Shown here: positions 1 to 19,386 of the stretch, piece by piece
How the letters are laid out: the number at the start of each line of letters is the position of its first letter
How positions within the stretch are numbered: the first letter of the stretch is position 1
Assembly (NCBI GenBank): GCA_009602725.1
Contig: WELB01000211.1
Location: forward strand, 158,965 to 186,518
Direction: 5' to 3'
Length of the DNA stretch: 27,554 nucleotides
Source: Spirogloea muscicola
Lineage: Eukaryota > Streptophyta > Zygnematophyceae > Spirogloeales > Spirogloeaceae
Notes under the pieces: model-generated
Database searches by the model: none
What the model saw: the letters and a program-made list of their open reading frames with translations, nothing else
Told to the model about the DNA's origin: nothing
Program-made: the position numbers and the translations under genes

Positions 1-436
<436 letters not shown>

Positions 437-12300: not shown

Positions 12301-15300
12301 TCAGAAGCACGACGCGGCGACGGCACACCAACTGCTTGGCTGGGAGGCCTTGGCAGCGGCTCCAATTCACCTTGCCTCTAGGGTGGCGAGCCTTTTGAGT
12401 GGCGTAGCTCCACAGCAATGCTCTGCGAACCAGGTAAGAAGTGCATCAAGTTTGAACATAGCACCTATGACCAGCAAGAACACAGGTCAGGAACACAATC
12501 ATGGAGGTGCACCGACCTGTCGGCTTGCTCAGTCCACTTGAAGCGCTTTGACCTTCGTGCTTTTCTATGCTTCTTATTGCTCTGGACGTGCTCTGCCACC
12601 ACTTCTTCGGCCCTGGAATGTACTGCCTGGTGCTCTACATCCTTGCCAAGATGCCCCTCTTGGCCTTCCTTCAATCGCCGTCTCTTATATGCACGGACAT
12701 GCCCTGCCTCATGAGGAGCACGTCTGCCCACTGCCCCGGAAGCAGGACCTCTGGAGAGGTGGGCAAGCCGCATAAGGTGATTCCTCCTATAGGAGACCCT
12801 CAGAACCTGCTCAAGCGATACATCAGCCTGCATGGCAACCAACACGCACTGCTCGTGTGTCGCCTTGTGACCCAGGCCCCCCGCTGCTCGCCTTAGCCTG
12901 CTTTGTATATCTGCTCGTGCCTCTGCCGTCAGAGTGTCGCGATTGGACCACGATCGTGATCGGCACACCTATTGGTCACACCAGCTAGCATGGCTGTGTT
13001 AGAGCGGATAAAGCACAGATTGATGTTTAATTTGCAGGTTAGCGAATGCTGTCCTCAAAGCGGACTTACCTCAGGAGCGACGGTGGCTGGAAAAGCTTGA
13101 AGGGCGAAGTATTGCTCAGCGCTTGAGAACAAGGCTTCAAGGTCTTCCCAATAGAGGGCAATTGCACCCCTGGTGCTGAAGGTGTAAGTGCGACACGCTT
13201 TGACTTCATCAGCACTGGGCTCTTCCAGAGTAGCCCGCTCCTCCAAGCCATATGCTTGTGATGCTTCCGGCATGCCTGGCAAAGTCACCAGATCCTCCGC
13301 TATTCCTTGACTGGGCAGACTCTGGCTGTAGTCCATCCGTATCAGCTGCCACATCAGAAGCCACGCTGGTCAGAATGTTGCCAGATCAAATTACTCAATG
13401 AAAGAAGCTCTTCTCTTTAAGAATGAAAGTGCAGAGAGCTCCTGACCTTCAGGCGTTTGAGGAGGTCAAGAAGGACAGACATGCGGCTGCGCCATCCCTC
13501 AACACCAACAAGACGATGTAATGTTTCTGGTGGCATCCTGGCTACTGCCTCAGCAGCAGTGAATATCTGTAGTGAAGTACCCGAATAGAACGTCCTCCAC
13601 AGGAAAGTGTGCAGCGAACATGCTCGACTGAGCTTTGCAGTAATGTAGCCCCTGGCAATGACGACTGACTTTTGGGCTGAGGTTGGACCATCTAGTCGTT
13701 CCTCAGAGGCTAAGTAAGCCTCCTTATGGACTTTAGCGTCGAGTCGGCGACCAGTGGGAAGGCGCTCAACTCCAGTGAGTACCTGCACTGCTGCCCCGTC
13801 CCCAGGCCTGACCTGCCTCCAGCAAGCAATTGTCAGTGTGTGTACCTCGACTGTGCTTAGGAGGTGATGCAACAACAAAACAAGGTACACCAACAACGTT
13901 GGCACTTGTATATCTTAGAACCCAACGGCAAGCGAGAAGGTCTGATGCTGGCCATTGCAGGCACTGACCTTAGACTGACCAGCACTGCGACCCTGGGACT
14001 CCAGCAATCGGAAGCGAGTGTGTATGCTTTCAAAAAGAGTGTTGCTGAGCTCCACACCATTTACTAGGATAACCTCCACGTTTCTTTTAAGCCCTCCGTT
14101 TGAGATCCCCAGTACTTCCACGTATGTGCTCCTGCAAAAGTTCTGTTGCTGCAGTCGCTCGATCACTCTGGTCACTGTTTTCCTATCTAACTTCACCGGA
14201 AATTCTGCATCCTCCAATACACGCTGCAGCTCCATACGCAGACACCATCCCCCGCAGTTCTGCAAGATGAGATCAAGCATTCAAGCTTCAAGGAGAGTGT
14301 GATATAGGATTCCAGTGCATTTAGGCTTAGTACATGATACATGCATTGACTTCCAAGCGCGTAGAGGACACTGAAAGTCGCACAATGAGCGGCACGTACC
14401 TGGAGGAAGTGGCGGACTTTTTGCTCCCGGTTGAGACCCTTAAAAGTGCTGGGGAAGTTGGGCCGCTTGACATACTTGGCAGGAGCAACAGCAATTGCCC
14501 CTTCCTCCTGTGGCTCTTGCTTGACATTTTTGGCGAGGCTGACTGTTGTAGCAGAGGCAGCCTTGTCCCTCTCCTTCACATGAAGCTCTGGCTTGAGCAG
14601 CAGCTGCTCCATTGGAGCAGCATCAAGATTGGCTGCCCTCAGGCGGTATGTCGTGGACTTACTTTTCAGCTCGCCAAACCTTGTCACCAACTTCCTCTCA
14701 AGCAGCCTGTCGAGGCGGAATTGGTTACGTTTGCTACTGACGCCAAGTTGCTTCCACAGCTGCGCATGCCATTATCCCTCTCTATCAGCACCAAGTGAGC
14801 TACAAAGGGTTGTTCGCAGCTCCGTAATGTCCATCTCAATGGACTTTATGCAACCAAGATAGCACCAACATAGCAACATGTGAAGCTCACACAAAAGCAT
14901 CTCAGAGTGTTGATCTACCCAACATGCAAACTCCTCTAAGATACTGTACTCACATCTGAGGAGTACAAGCCAGCTGGGCCTGCAGCATGGATCATGTCGT
15001 ACATCTGCTCGAGCAAGGGCAGCTCCACTAGGACGCCACCCGAGTTGCCAACTCCCTGCTCATCATTCTCCAGATCTTGCTCGTCCTCCCCCTGTGTCTG
15101 CTTCTGGCCCTGGCTGAGTGTCTTGCTAACTCGGAGGAGATTAAGGAGCCTCATGCAACTTACTACCTGCAGTTACAATACGTCCAGTCAAAGCAGGCTT
15201 TCAAGAACAGCATCAATGAGAGTACTGCATGAGCAGTCTCTTCATGCAATACATTACCTGCAGTAGTAAGTGTCCAGTCTCAGCAGCCTGTCAGAACAGA

Positions 15301-16748
15301 ATTGGGACGAGCCTCCTGGTCTAAGTTTCACTGTTACTATCCTGGACCAGTACCAGTGTCTACCGCAATGAGGTTAGCGTCACCATACCTTGGCGTCTAC
15401 GCTGCCTGCAAAAACCTCAACTGCGCCTGAGTCCACAAGCTTTCTCTCCAACTGCAGCAAGCACACAGGTGTACCTTGGAAACAAGCTCTCTGTCTCCAT
15501 ATAGTACAACGTTTGCGCTCAACAGAACGTGCGGAACTTCTCAAGGACAATCGATGGGCTGCTGAGACGTGGCTATCAGGTAATATCACTGTACTCTGCG
15601 CCACTGGCGGTGGCCTTTCGCATGCCGATATCCAAGGTCCACTTTCAGCTCGTGCACCACAAGTACCTGCACAGAGGCTTCAACGTGCTGATCAATCTCT
15701 GGTACTCCAGTCAATTACAGCTGGCAAGCCACCTCAACATAAATTAGGCAATCAGAAGTTCAGCTGTAGTATCACCCCACAATCCCATTGCCAGGAGAGT
15801 TCTGTAATATCTTCACGTTCATCATGAAGGAGGAGGCCTGCGGCACCTTGCCATCTGCTGCTTCGAGCCTCTGGCAAATGGCCTGCAGAGCGGCGGTGTC
15901 GTCGGTGACCAGCCACGCTGGAGGATCATCTGCCCCCTCCTCAGAAAGCTCCTTCTTGCAGCTACTTGAGGCAAGAGGAGTTTCCAATCGCTTCACGCCA
16001 CTGTTCATGAAAGAGCGGCCGAATCGTGCAAGATGACAGATGTTGGTGCTGACGACCTGTCCGGTCGGCTTCCGATCCTGCTTGGATAGAATGTTGTGGC
16101 GGGTTACGAGACCGCGAGCCTCGAGGTGCCGCACATGATAGAAGAAGTTGTTGTTGCTGATGTTGAGGAGCTTCGCCAGTGCTGCCTGCGTCATCCCCTT
16201 CTCCCTGTGAGTATGTCAAAGCAGGTATATGAGTCAGGTCGTGGCAGAGCAGTCCTGGCATCTGCGATCAAGTGCATGGCCGATGCATTGCCGGAGGCAG
16301 CTAAGGACATGGTCGACGTCAAGCCAGTGACAGCTGGCAAGGCCGCAGTTGCTGATAAGGCTTGCTACCTGGCCATCGCCAGGGCTCGCAGCACAGCCCG
16401 CTGCTCCTCCACCTCGGGGGACGGCATGTCGTACAGCCCCAGCGCGGCGGTGCGCAGAGCTTCGGGAGCGACCACTGCGACGCCGAGGCGCTCTGCCTCT
16501 GCCGCATTCTGGACGCTGGGATCCTCAGGCGAGACGCTGCGGTAACTCCCATCGGAGGCGGCGAGCCGGAGCTCCACGTCGTCCGTCAGCAGGAGAGCGC
16601 GCCAGGCAGCGGCTTGGGCGGCCGGATCCAGGGCCAGGCCGAGGCGGGCCGCGGCGGGCTCGAGAGCGCGCCACAGCTGTCGCAGCGGCGCGCCGTCAGC
16701 GCCGGCTGCCGCCGCGTGGTCCAGCAACGCTGCCAGCAGCTCGTCCAT
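9356..16748 (-). CDS. TFC3: TFIIIC largest subunit, B-box-binding (GTF3C1/TFC3 homologue)
   Basis: TFIIIC recognises the internal promoter of tRNA genes for RNA polymerase III; this subunit binds the B-box. Eighteen phase-consistent exons: 16748-16369, 16204-15847, 15666-15595, 15451-15389, 15166-14954, 14759-14400, 14259-13969, 13845-13447, 13345-13070, 12968-12517, 12422-11414, 11321-11268, 11076-10665, 10560-10487, 10341-10260, 10088-9835, 9722-9684, 9562-9356 (TGA); about 1,664 residues. Order of blocks: N-terminal winged helix (MTQAALAKLL, FFYHVRHLEARGLV) typical of B-block-binding proteins; VLVVHELKVDLGY plus GHRQWRRLERKLVDSGAVE; LWKQLGVSSKRNQ; RTYTFSTRGAIALYWEDLE; a Myb/SANT-like block RSKRFKWTEQADRALLWSYA with VNWSRCQGLPAKQ; GSSPFMLSGGFY; RREKGFPKMEV; a C-terminal winged-helix part with RPGIPEVELIKEMDAINPQ and VMELDGILCV. 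The late blocks match plant TFIIIC rather than only fungal or animal forms. The ATG begins MDELLAALLDHA. No frame break was found. Confidence 0.92.
15161..15306. repeat. Diverged direct repeat duplicating a splice acceptor in the TFIIIC gene
   Basis: Two diverged copies about 93 bp apart: 15162-15210 (actacctgcag ... gtccagtcaaagcagg) and 15255-15303 (attacctgcag ... gtccagtctcagcagc). The first carries the true acceptor and first bases of exon 15166-14954 (sense strand CTGCAG|GTAGTAAG); the second carries an extra CTGCAG in the preceding intron. Resemblance is about three quarters by eye. Confidence 0.55.
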
Positions 16749-16810
16749 CCCATCGCCAGGGTCGTGGCGGCGAGGGCGGAAAATCCGAGCAAGCGGCGTC
16801 GCGCCGCACG

Positions 16811-16837
16811 GGCGGCGGCGGCGGCGGCGGCGGCGGC
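16811..16837 (-). repeat. (GCC)n tract upstream of the TFIIIC start codon
   Basis: A perfect run of nine GGC units on the plus strand, GCC on the sense strand, 63-89 bases upstream of the TFIIIC ATG and probably in its 5' UTR. Similar tracts lie just upstream of the PRT1, ATG3 and RPS2 start codons. Confidence 0.75.
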
Positions 16838-16928
16838 TGTCTGGCGGCCTTGCCGCCGTCGCCCCGCACCAGCGGCGGGGCACGCCGGCGCGGCTTGGCC
16901 TCGCGATGTAGGGTCCGGCGCTTGAGTA

Positions 16929-16966
16929 TGTGGGACGAGGGTTCGAACCCCGATGAGGTTCCCACA
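16929..16966 (-). ncRNA. tRNA-minihelix-like hairpin with a Pol III B-box, upstream of the TFIIIC gene
   Basis: On the minus strand, TGTGGGA (16966-16960) can pair over seven bases with TCCCACA (16935-16929). Between them lies a seven-base linker and a T-arm: CGGGG, loop TTCGAAC, CCTCG (one G-U pair). This is the acceptor stem plus T-arm of a tRNA, with D and anticodon arms missing. The core GGTTCGAACCC fits the TFIIIC B-box consensus GWTCRANNC. I found no convincing A-box and no full cloverleaf, so it is not called as a tRNA gene; it may be a tRNA remnant, a tRNA-derived repeat or a TFIIIC-only site. It lies about 181 bases upstream of the TFIIIC subunit's start codon. Confidence 0.5.
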
Positions 16967-18410
16967 ACCCACGCTTTGACCTCGAGCTCGACGAGCGCCA
17001 TCCGGCCCCTCCGACCTTGTCCATTCTTTTGGGCTGGCCTCAAACAGCCACCAGTCAATCTGGAAGCGCTTTTCTCGACGGATCCCCAAAGTGGGGGGAA
17101 GGCGCGCGGTGCGCATGATTGCAAGGGAGGCTAGATCAAGCCAGTGCACACTGTTCAGAGAAAAGCTGGTGCGAAGTGTTGGGCAATTACACAAAGCGAA
17201 GCTACTACACAATGGGAGATCGTTTCCAATCCGCCGACCATCCTGTATAAGTTGAGTATGTCCCATTGCAGTTGACTCCCACGGGGCGTCTGGTGCTCAG
17301 TACCTCCAGCGGTTTGCGCAAGGACAAGTAATATGGTGGGCAGAGGCAGCCTGGGCAGCTAGCTGCCAGTGGCTCTCTGGCCCTTGGTGCATGCGTCTGT
17401 CCTTTTGGATGCAGCAATAGTGGCATTTATTTTCCATCTGCATGCTGGCCGTGCATAGTGGCACTTCATGAGATCGGCGGCGCGACTCGTTTCTCTGCAG
17501 CCATAGTACAATCTGCGGCTGTTGACCAGGGTTACTTATGTATTATCATTATACTTATGTTGATTCTGCCCCTTGCAGCCACTTTATGTGCTGATATATT
17601 TGCAAGATGTTGAATGTCTGGGGCTCCCCCCCCCGACTTTGTCCACTCTTAAATTAGGCTGGCCTCTCACAGCCAATGCCCTCTATTGAGAGAGCTTCTT
17701 TCTATCCAGCTGCTACTGCTTCCTACTAGATATAGTGACTAGGGTCTACTGGTTGGTCATATACTCTAGTAGCCAGCTTCTTGCTGAGTGGGTTGTGCAT
17801 TAGTGTTGGGGCTTCACTCATAATTTTGTCCACTCTTCTTGGGCTGGCCTTTCATCGCCTCAGTGTCGGGAGAGCTTCTTCTCCTTTTTTGCCTAGCTAC
17901 CGCCTCCTTCAGCGAGACCCTTTCCACGTCTGGAGGAGCTTCCTCCTCTTACCTTCTCAGGCATTTTTCGTGCAATTAGCAAGCAGACTACGCCTTGGCT
18001 GCCATTGATTGGGCTCGGCGTGGCTCCAACTTGCGGCTATTGAGAAGGGATTATTGGACACTCTATAGTAGCCACTTGCTTAACTGCGTACTTGTGCTTT
18101 GCGGCCCCTTTGGATCTTGTCACAACATTTTCAGCTGGCCTTTCAGAGTCACACCCGCCTGAGAAAGCACTTCCCTACCCGCTTGTTTATTTACTCTGAC
18201 TTGCGACATCTGTAGAGGGGTTACCGAAACCCATTCGTGCGGTGCAGAACAAAGAAAACTGCAGCACTACTCCGACTACCCCCATTGCGATCAGCTCCTG
18301 CCAGCGGCAATCGACATCTTCGGCTGTCTGGGTCTCGTTTCCACACTCTCCTTCAAAACATTGCCAATCTAGGCTTTACTCGACGTGCAGATGTGTTTCC
18401 GGCTGAGATG

Positions 18411-18619
18411 GGCTTGCCAGCTGCATGTCTGTTGCTCTTGCGAGGACGAGTTTCGGCCTGTTTGCAGCGTGCTCAGGCTAGTGCCTTGCACCAGAAAGCT
18501 GGGCGAGCTCTGGTTGGTGGCAGAAGGGCTTCGTTTCTGGCATCTAGTATTCATGCATCGATAAGTGGCCTTCATGTTTTGACCCGTAATTACTGAGCGG
18601 GTCAACCTGCTGTAGTTTA
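18411..18619 (-). repeat. Dispersed repeat, copy B (inverted relative to copy A)
   Basis: The reverse complement of this segment aligns over its whole length with 8562-8767. It lies inside the GGGCTGGCCT region between two widely spaced cores (18132 and 18829), which suggests it was inserted there. Immediately beyond its far end is a GTAT-rich microsatellite. Confidence 0.8.
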
Positions 18620-18626
18620 TGAAGAC

Positions 18627-18670
18627 GTGTGTATGTATGTAGATGTATGTATGTGTGCATGTATGTATGC
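18627..18670 (+). repeat. GTAT/GTGT microsatellite
   Basis: Imperfect run of TGTATGTA units (gtgtgtatgtatgtagatg and onwards) directly beside dispersed repeat copy B. Confidence 0.8.
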
Positions 18671-19386
18671 TCATGCAGATCTTTAGATGTGCTTGCCTAT
18701 GTACTTTGCCATTTGGCCTACGTTTGATTCAATTACACGAAATTCCCTCATTCGTAGCCACTTTGCTTAGCTGCTTGATTTACACTTTCTGATACCTTCG
18801 GACCTTGTCCTTCTGTCCATTCTTTGTGGGCTGGCTTTCACAGCACTTGCCTCCTTTGAAACGAACAAGAAAGTTGTACGTTTGGGCTGGCCTCCCACAG
18901 CCACTGCATTACATTGGAAGAGCTGTTTCTGTGCTGGCCTTTCAAAGTCCTCTTTCTCCATCTTGATAAGTCACTCCGACTTTGGGGTCAATTATGAACA
19001 TTCATCCATAGTAGCTACTTGTGTAGCTGCATACTTTGCTCTTTCCGGTTCCTGCAGAGCTTATCCACTCATTTGTGGCTGGCCTTTCCCCTTTTTATCT
19101 TCCACAGCCATCGCCCTCGTCGGAGGAGCCTCTTCCTTGTTTGGGCTGGCCTTTTAAAGCCCCCATTCTTGCCTTCGTACTTGGCTACTTTGGCCTTCGA
19201 TTGTTTCAAATACACGGAAGTTCTCCTTCTGAGAGAGCTCCTATTATCTGCCTCCTTTGGAGCAGGTTCTTGAATGGGAGCAGCGCGTCATCCCCCGTCA
19301 GGCCGTGACGAGGCCGCCCCAGCCAGGACTCCGGCGCTGACGGGCGCAGGAAGACGAGCAGACGGCAAGCGGAAGGCGGCGAGAAC

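Follow-up and report, generated by a model that had tools for sequence, protein, structure and literature searches.

Does a B-box match in front of the gene for the largest subunit of TFIIIC mark a site through which this factor controls its own level, or is it a fortuitous match beside a suggestive gene? The question was raised by an inverted repeat in a 27,554-nucleotide stretch of Spirogloea muscicola DNA (the window, a part of contig C211), for which the original prediction had proposed a TFIIIC B-box within a hairpin resembling a tRNA minihelix. Two other contigs with TFC3 copies are referred to as C81 and C295, and loci around motif sites carry L-numbers. The B-box palindrome near TFC3 most likely matches by chance and serves no dedicated TFIIIC function, a reading in which our confidence is only slightly better than even.

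Position and anatomy of the hairpin

The minihelix-like inverted repeat occupies positions 16929 to 16966 on the minus strand, which is also the strand of TFC3. Read from 16966 to 16929, it begins with the outer strand TGTGGGA and a 7-nt spacer (ACCTCAT), continues with CGGGG and CCTCG, which form a 5-bp T-arm-like stem with one G-T pair around the loop TTCGAAC, and ends with TCCCACA, the second strand of the 7-bp outer stem. On this strand, the T-arm-like stem directly abuts the outer 3' strand, gapless as in tRNA, and in the plus-strand reading the T-arm would pair at 3 of 5 positions. The palindrome GGGTTCGAACCC, located at 16939 to 16950, matches on both strands the core of GGTTCGANNCC, which we take to be the Pol III B-box consensus. 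It is the only place in the window where GGTTCGAACCC was matched at no more than one mismatch, the match being exact on both strands, and it lies outside any tRNA gene, as ARAGORN found none in the window.

The gene downstream was identified from its first exon. The stretch from the ATG (16368 to 16748, minus strand) encodes an N-terminal winged-helix domain, and residues 1–106 of this exon align to positions 1–101 of the WH_GTF3C1_N profile (PF23704, E 5.5e-21). A B-block_TFIIIC domain match was located at 16021 to 16209 of the same strand (PF04182, E 2.2e-10; contig positions 174985–175173). Taken alone, this match is not specific, because the PF04182 model also responded in 8 of 14 prokaryote control genomes, in 4 of them over the cut-off. 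Across the 153-Mb genome, it gave three hits, on C211, C81, and C295, all of which are TFC3 copies. A match to Pfam DUF7645 was also noted in the TFC3 gene region (12465 to 12968, minus strand), with 27.4 bits at a cut-off of 27. Orthologues of exon 1 were absent from the collections of viral, bacterial, and archaeal contigs, which are not algal and hence provide no evidence of absence. The anatomy of the hairpin, its strand, its distance from the start codon (180 bp from the hairpin 3' end to the ATG at 16748), and the identity of the gene were all confirmed by reading of the sequence and by Pfam, as originally predicted.

The site lies just upstream of a TFIIIC subunit gene and, as judged from the sequence, sits in the TFC3 promoter or 5' leader. 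An open frame beginning at an ATG at 17024 continues through the hairpin into TFC3, and a protein-coding role of the hairpin was considered. It was rejected, and the region was read as a non-coding leader, because the hairpin region of C295 differs internally in length by 5 nt and the protein start supported by Pfam is at 16748.

A strict B-box at this distance from the ATG of the gene that yields the only B-block_TFIIIC hits of the genome argues for autoregulation of the ETC type. In the simplest mechanism for a functional site, TFIIIC would bind the B-box as double-stranded DNA without Pol III and limit TFC3, with the hairpin uninvolved. Bound there, it would dampen Pol II transcription of TFC3 or set its start site, and the factor would limit its own largest, B-box-reading subunit. 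Retention of the B-box in C295 also speaks for such a function, as do precedents in yeast and mammals that are described below. Against it, no A-box was recognised by eye, conservation in C295 is at background level, and none of the strict B-boxes listed genome-wide lies near the Tau95 or BRF1 hits. An ETC-like function of the site is given a minority share of our confidence, by judgement and not by computation.

Resemblance to tRNA and folding

The element had been interpreted as a decayed tRNA reduced to its B-box. The contiguity of T-arm and stem, exactly as in tRNA and on the TFC3 strand, would suit a relic of a tRNA gene or of a tRNA-derived SINE of which T-arm and acceptor stem are left. 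This interpretation was not supported by any of the comparisons made. No Rfam match at the gathering threshold was obtained in the window, and in the 701-bp region from 16600 to 17300 six Rfam matches were found at E values up to 10, none of them to tRNA. When the 3' half of the hairpin was compared with genomic tRNAs (45 ARAGORN calls at 30 loci, 34 distinct sequences, with at least 60 tRNA matches listed genome-wide), the best agreement was 16 of 24 bases. Neither a cloverleaf nor recognisable tRNA similarity was detected at the hairpin by ARAGORN, Rfam, or the genomic comparison.

Copies of the hairpin region, the adjoining repeat aside, were found at C211, C81, and C295 (these counts are lower bounds), that is, at the three TFC3 copies. 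The exact stem pattern occurs genome-wide only at the window locus and at its C81 twin and is broken in C295. The dispersed copies expected of a tRNA-derived SINE were not found, and the hairpin was rejected as a dispersed repeat; the concern that it might belong to an abundant repeat family of tRNA origin was likewise removed. With the tRNA matches missing and the stem lost in C295, a tRNA or SINE relic is very improbable, and the decayed-tRNA interpretation was abandoned.

The best of the six Rfam matches was to mascRNA-menRNA (model positions 1–56, minus strand), with 18 bits against a gathering threshold of 42.5 and an E value of 0.76. This match, on the same strand as TFC3, would fit a transcribed leader with a tRNA-like RNA hairpin, either processed in a mascRNA-like way or bound within the 5' UTR. 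The minus strand of a 56-nt stretch is consistent with this explanation, since only 1 of 200 shuffles folded as well (z −2.72), compared to 13 of 200 for the plus strand. Other folds were ordinary: the 38-mer folds at −15.1 kcal/mol, a value equalled by 20 of 200 shuffles, and for a 91-nt stretch 14 of 200 shuffles were as good on the minus strand and 80 of 200 on the plus strand. The Rfam score falls short of significance, and C295 lacks the fold. An RNA function of the hairpin, which this copy does not support, is to us the least probable of the explanations weighed here.

The minihelix itself was compared with shuffled flanks around a fixed B-box. The full combination of a 5-bp T-arm and a 7-bp outer stem within 40 nt arose in 24 of 4000 shuffles (0.6%), and six or more outer pairs arose in 304 of 4000, in a post hoc test that allowed G-U pairs and either strand.

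Copies of the TFC3 flank and motif sites across the genome

The TFC3 copies on C211, C81, and C295 are 90.7–91.8% identical over about 7.6 kb. Three hits were obtained genome-wide for each of the models PF04182, PF09734 (Tau95), and PF07741 (BRF1), which suggests that the gene set is present in three diverged copies. The three hits per model, together with a TFC3 divergence of about 9%, suggest that the genome is triploid or hybrid, roughly 3 × 51 Mb.

All three TFC3 copies carry the B-box match, and a 151-bp flank matched C81 at 100% and C295 at 90%. The C81 copy is perhaps not independent. Identity between the window, from 17055 to 16699, and C81 is unbroken over 357 bp and starts right after an N at C81:554016, while the next longest exact run in the TFC3 gene is 96. 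Past this N, homology to the window returns only about 4.4 kb away; C295 diverges normally here. The C81 flank may be an assembly patch or the product of a recent gene conversion, and it was not counted as independent because the 357-bp perfect identity adjoins the N. To the left of the N, C81 contains a near-perfect inverted repeat of about 88 bp (L010:888–975) with many sub-threshold matches to miRNA precursors on both strands.

In C295, the 24-nt 3' half of the hairpin, CGGGGTTCGAACCCTCGTCCCACA, is unchanged (as read in L011). The 5' strand TGTGGGA is replaced, the length differs by 5 nt, and the fold is altered, so that the outer stem is lost. Between window positions 16821 and 16993, 162 of 173 ungapped columns are identical to C295, with 5 additional gap columns, and an unchanged 11-mer would for this reason be expected about half the time. 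Retention of the B-box in C295 thus appears to be no better than its surroundings allow, at background level. That C295, although diverged, retains the B-box gives weak support to the original prediction; the outer stem is not retained. On this comparison, the minihelix is a property of one sequence version and the B-box is common to the copies. From an upstream TGTGGGA in C295, a tRNA-sized reading of 80 nt was also folded and rejected: no cloverleaf formed, and 15 of 200 shuffles folded equally well (z −1.52).

A copy of an abundant interspersed repeat of about 80 bp adjoins the hairpin at 16995 to 17075 on the minus strand and is absent at this place in C295. The repeat, with an inner hairpin GGCTG...CCAGCC, was represented by 40 scored members of 929 first-look candidates in the genome, and diverged relatives occur at about 17028–19170 of the window. 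The window copy is situated between two CGTCGAG motifs, where C295 has a single CCGTCGAGCTCGAGG, by eye an empty site. Conversely, a separate repeat copy in C295 is bordered by two CCCTTG motifs, and the window has one CCCTTG there. By eye, these look like copy-specific insertions, with target duplications of 6–7 bp, of a mobile element of very small size.

The motif GGTTCGAACCC is rare and is not enriched over its reversed control. In 153 Mb, 101 exact matches (53 + 48 on the two strands) were counted, compared to 120 (55 + 65) for the control, and the relaxed motif GGTTCGANTCC yielded 174 + 164 matches, compared to 213 + 239. Within the window, two GGTTCGAACCC matches at one mismatch or less were reached in 9 of 100 shuffles. 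The 100 matches listed of the 101 correspond to 65 sites, 35 palindromic and 30 one-strand, and the density of the exact 11-mer is about one per 2.4 Mb among the matches listed. By arithmetic, a strict motif would fall within 200 bp of any one named gene with a chance of about 1 in 10,000, before other noticeable coincidences are counted. A coincidence of this size favours function. On the other side, it was singled out where numerous others could have caught the eye, the motif is no better conserved than its surroundings, and a comparable site precedes an unrelated gene. The latter site (L005) lies 265 bp upstream of the CTP synthase gene start, and because of it strict sites before genes can be said to occur without any connection to Pol III.

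Among the 65 listed GGTTCGAACCC sites, 26 were examined, of which 22 were not tRNA genes and 4 lay in tRNA genes according to ARAGORN (L063, L067, L072, and L074). No Rfam tRNA match was found at E up to 5 in 17 examined loci without an ARAGORN tRNA, or at E up to 10 in L008, L068, and L079. The full minihelix occurred in none of the 26 sites, tRNA genes among these included, in a control that reaches 40 nt upstream, misses its four tRNA genes, and is uninformative on tRNA likeness.

The L079 site is located past the end of a gene for a class-II tRNA synthetase, and L008 reads likewise by eye. The locus shared by L008, L068, and L079, which also carries CGGGTTCGAACCCTCG, was found at three places only in the genome. 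Inspection by eye and a small BLAST comparison both hinted at homology of this locus to the TFC3 flank, and the shuffle ranks were unconvincing. The 3' side of L068 reached best ranks of 1 and 2 of 300, among 162 comparisons, and the homology was not accepted because L081, L064, and L065 ranked as well or better in the same 162 comparisons.

Apart from TFC3, the Pol III factors compared with the listed strict sites were Tau95 (C162, C40, and C239) and BRF1 (C1, C10, and C52), with three hits each. No listed GGTTCGAACCC site was found near any of them, the nearest being 253 kb away; this distance concerns the strict motif, and relaxed B-boxes may still lie nearer, the first 100 of 338 GGTTCGANTCC matches having been listed.

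The 35 full 12-bp palindromes among the 65 listed sites exceed the share of about one third that we infer from base composition. This proportion, together with the 11-mer site upstream of CTP synthase, suggests that a dimeric Pol II transcription factor of ordinary kind might read GGGTTCGAACCC. However, some palindromes are found elsewhere: one lies within a tRNA-Leu gene (L063), three are flanked by telomere-like stretches, and homeologues such as L006 and L064 inflate the count, which makes a dimeric factor doubtful. The three telomere-flanked loci (L064, L076, and L082) contain GGGTTCGAACCC between head-to-head stretches resembling TAGGG...CCCTA, internal to their contigs, as seen by eye.

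A fortuitous palindrome would be a chance match in a GC-rich flank, inherited by the TFC3 gene copies. Its tRNA-minihelix look would be incidental, since the inner pairs of the T-arm come from the palindrome alone and one sequence version only has the outer stem. This reading is favoured by the loss of the stem in C295, the only clearly independent copy, in which B-box conservation is at background, and by motif counts that do not exceed the reversed controls for either GGTTCGAACCC or GGTTCGANTCC. The missing tRNA signal in ARAGORN and Rfam, the 22 of 26 examined sites outside tRNA genes, the site before CTP synthase, and the distance of listed strict sites from Tau95 and BRF1 point in the same direction. 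Against chance stand the proximity of about 1 in 10,000, the presence of the B-box in all three TFC3 copies (C81 maybe not being independent), the minihelix frequency of 24 in 4000 shuffles, and a 56-nt minus-strand fold better than 199 of 200 shuffles. From this balance, we infer the absence of TFIIIC function at the palindrome. An autoregulatory ETC-like site at TFC3 is possible, chance being the likelier explanation on the sequence evidence.

Comparison with known systems

In the primary study on yeast TFC6 and ETC6, by Kleinschmidt in 2011, TFIIIC at ETC6 reportedly restrains or positions Pol II at TFC6. The precedent invoked in the original prediction is borne out by PMC4228148, in which ETC6 of Saccharomyces cerevisiae lies in the promoter of TFC6, the gene of a tau-B subunit of TFIIIC. 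Tfc3, Tfc6, and Tfc8 make up the tau-B module, and yeast ETC sites are defined by measured TFIIIC occupancy, according to PMC5356446. The site at TFC3 resembles ETC6 in being of B-box type, outside a tRNA gene, and near the promoter of a tau-B subunit gene. In contrast to yeast ETC sites with their measured occupancy, the algal site is known from a sequence match. It also differs from ETC6 in that the gene is TFC3 and not TFC6, the lineage is unrelated, and the match lies inside an inverted repeat in one sequence version. No B-box before a TFC3 gene of the plant lineage was found among the titles listed for TFIIIC in combination with ETC loci, the B-box, algae, Arabidopsis, or tRNA-like minihelices. 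That TFIIIC of this alga binds a free B-box in its own TFC3 promoter and controls its own level, by the logic of TFC6 and ETC6 on another subunit gene in a distant lineage, would be an unlikely outcome.

The acceptor-like stem stacked on a T-arm is shared with mascRNA/menRNA (Rfam RF01684), whereas the 18 bits of the TFC3 hairpin, far from the gathering score of that family, are not significant. A second precedent for Pol III feedback is mammalian Polr3e, whose intron 1 contains an antisense MIR. Pol III occupies this MIR, which works through transcriptional interference and whose deletion raises Polr3e expression (PMC5358760). At both loci, a gene belonging to the Pol III machinery carries an element of Pol III type. 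The Polr3e element is intronic, antisense, and Pol III-occupied, unlike the TFC3 site, at which neither a repeat of tRNA origin nor an A-box was recognised. In yeast, ZOD1 and other TFIIIC sites of tRNA ancestry are isolated Pol III promoter remnants held by TFIIIC, as described in PMC5356446. The B-box match at TFC3 is isolated like ZOD1, and, unlike there, tRNA ancestry cannot be shown.

If TFIIIC does not bind at TFC3, the locus illustrates how readily regulation is read into a single rare motif that happens to adjoin a fitting gene. If it does bind, autoregulation through an isolated B-box would have arisen on one TFIIIC subunit gene in yeast and on another in this alga, which would suggest that Pol III capacity is repeatedly balanced in this way.
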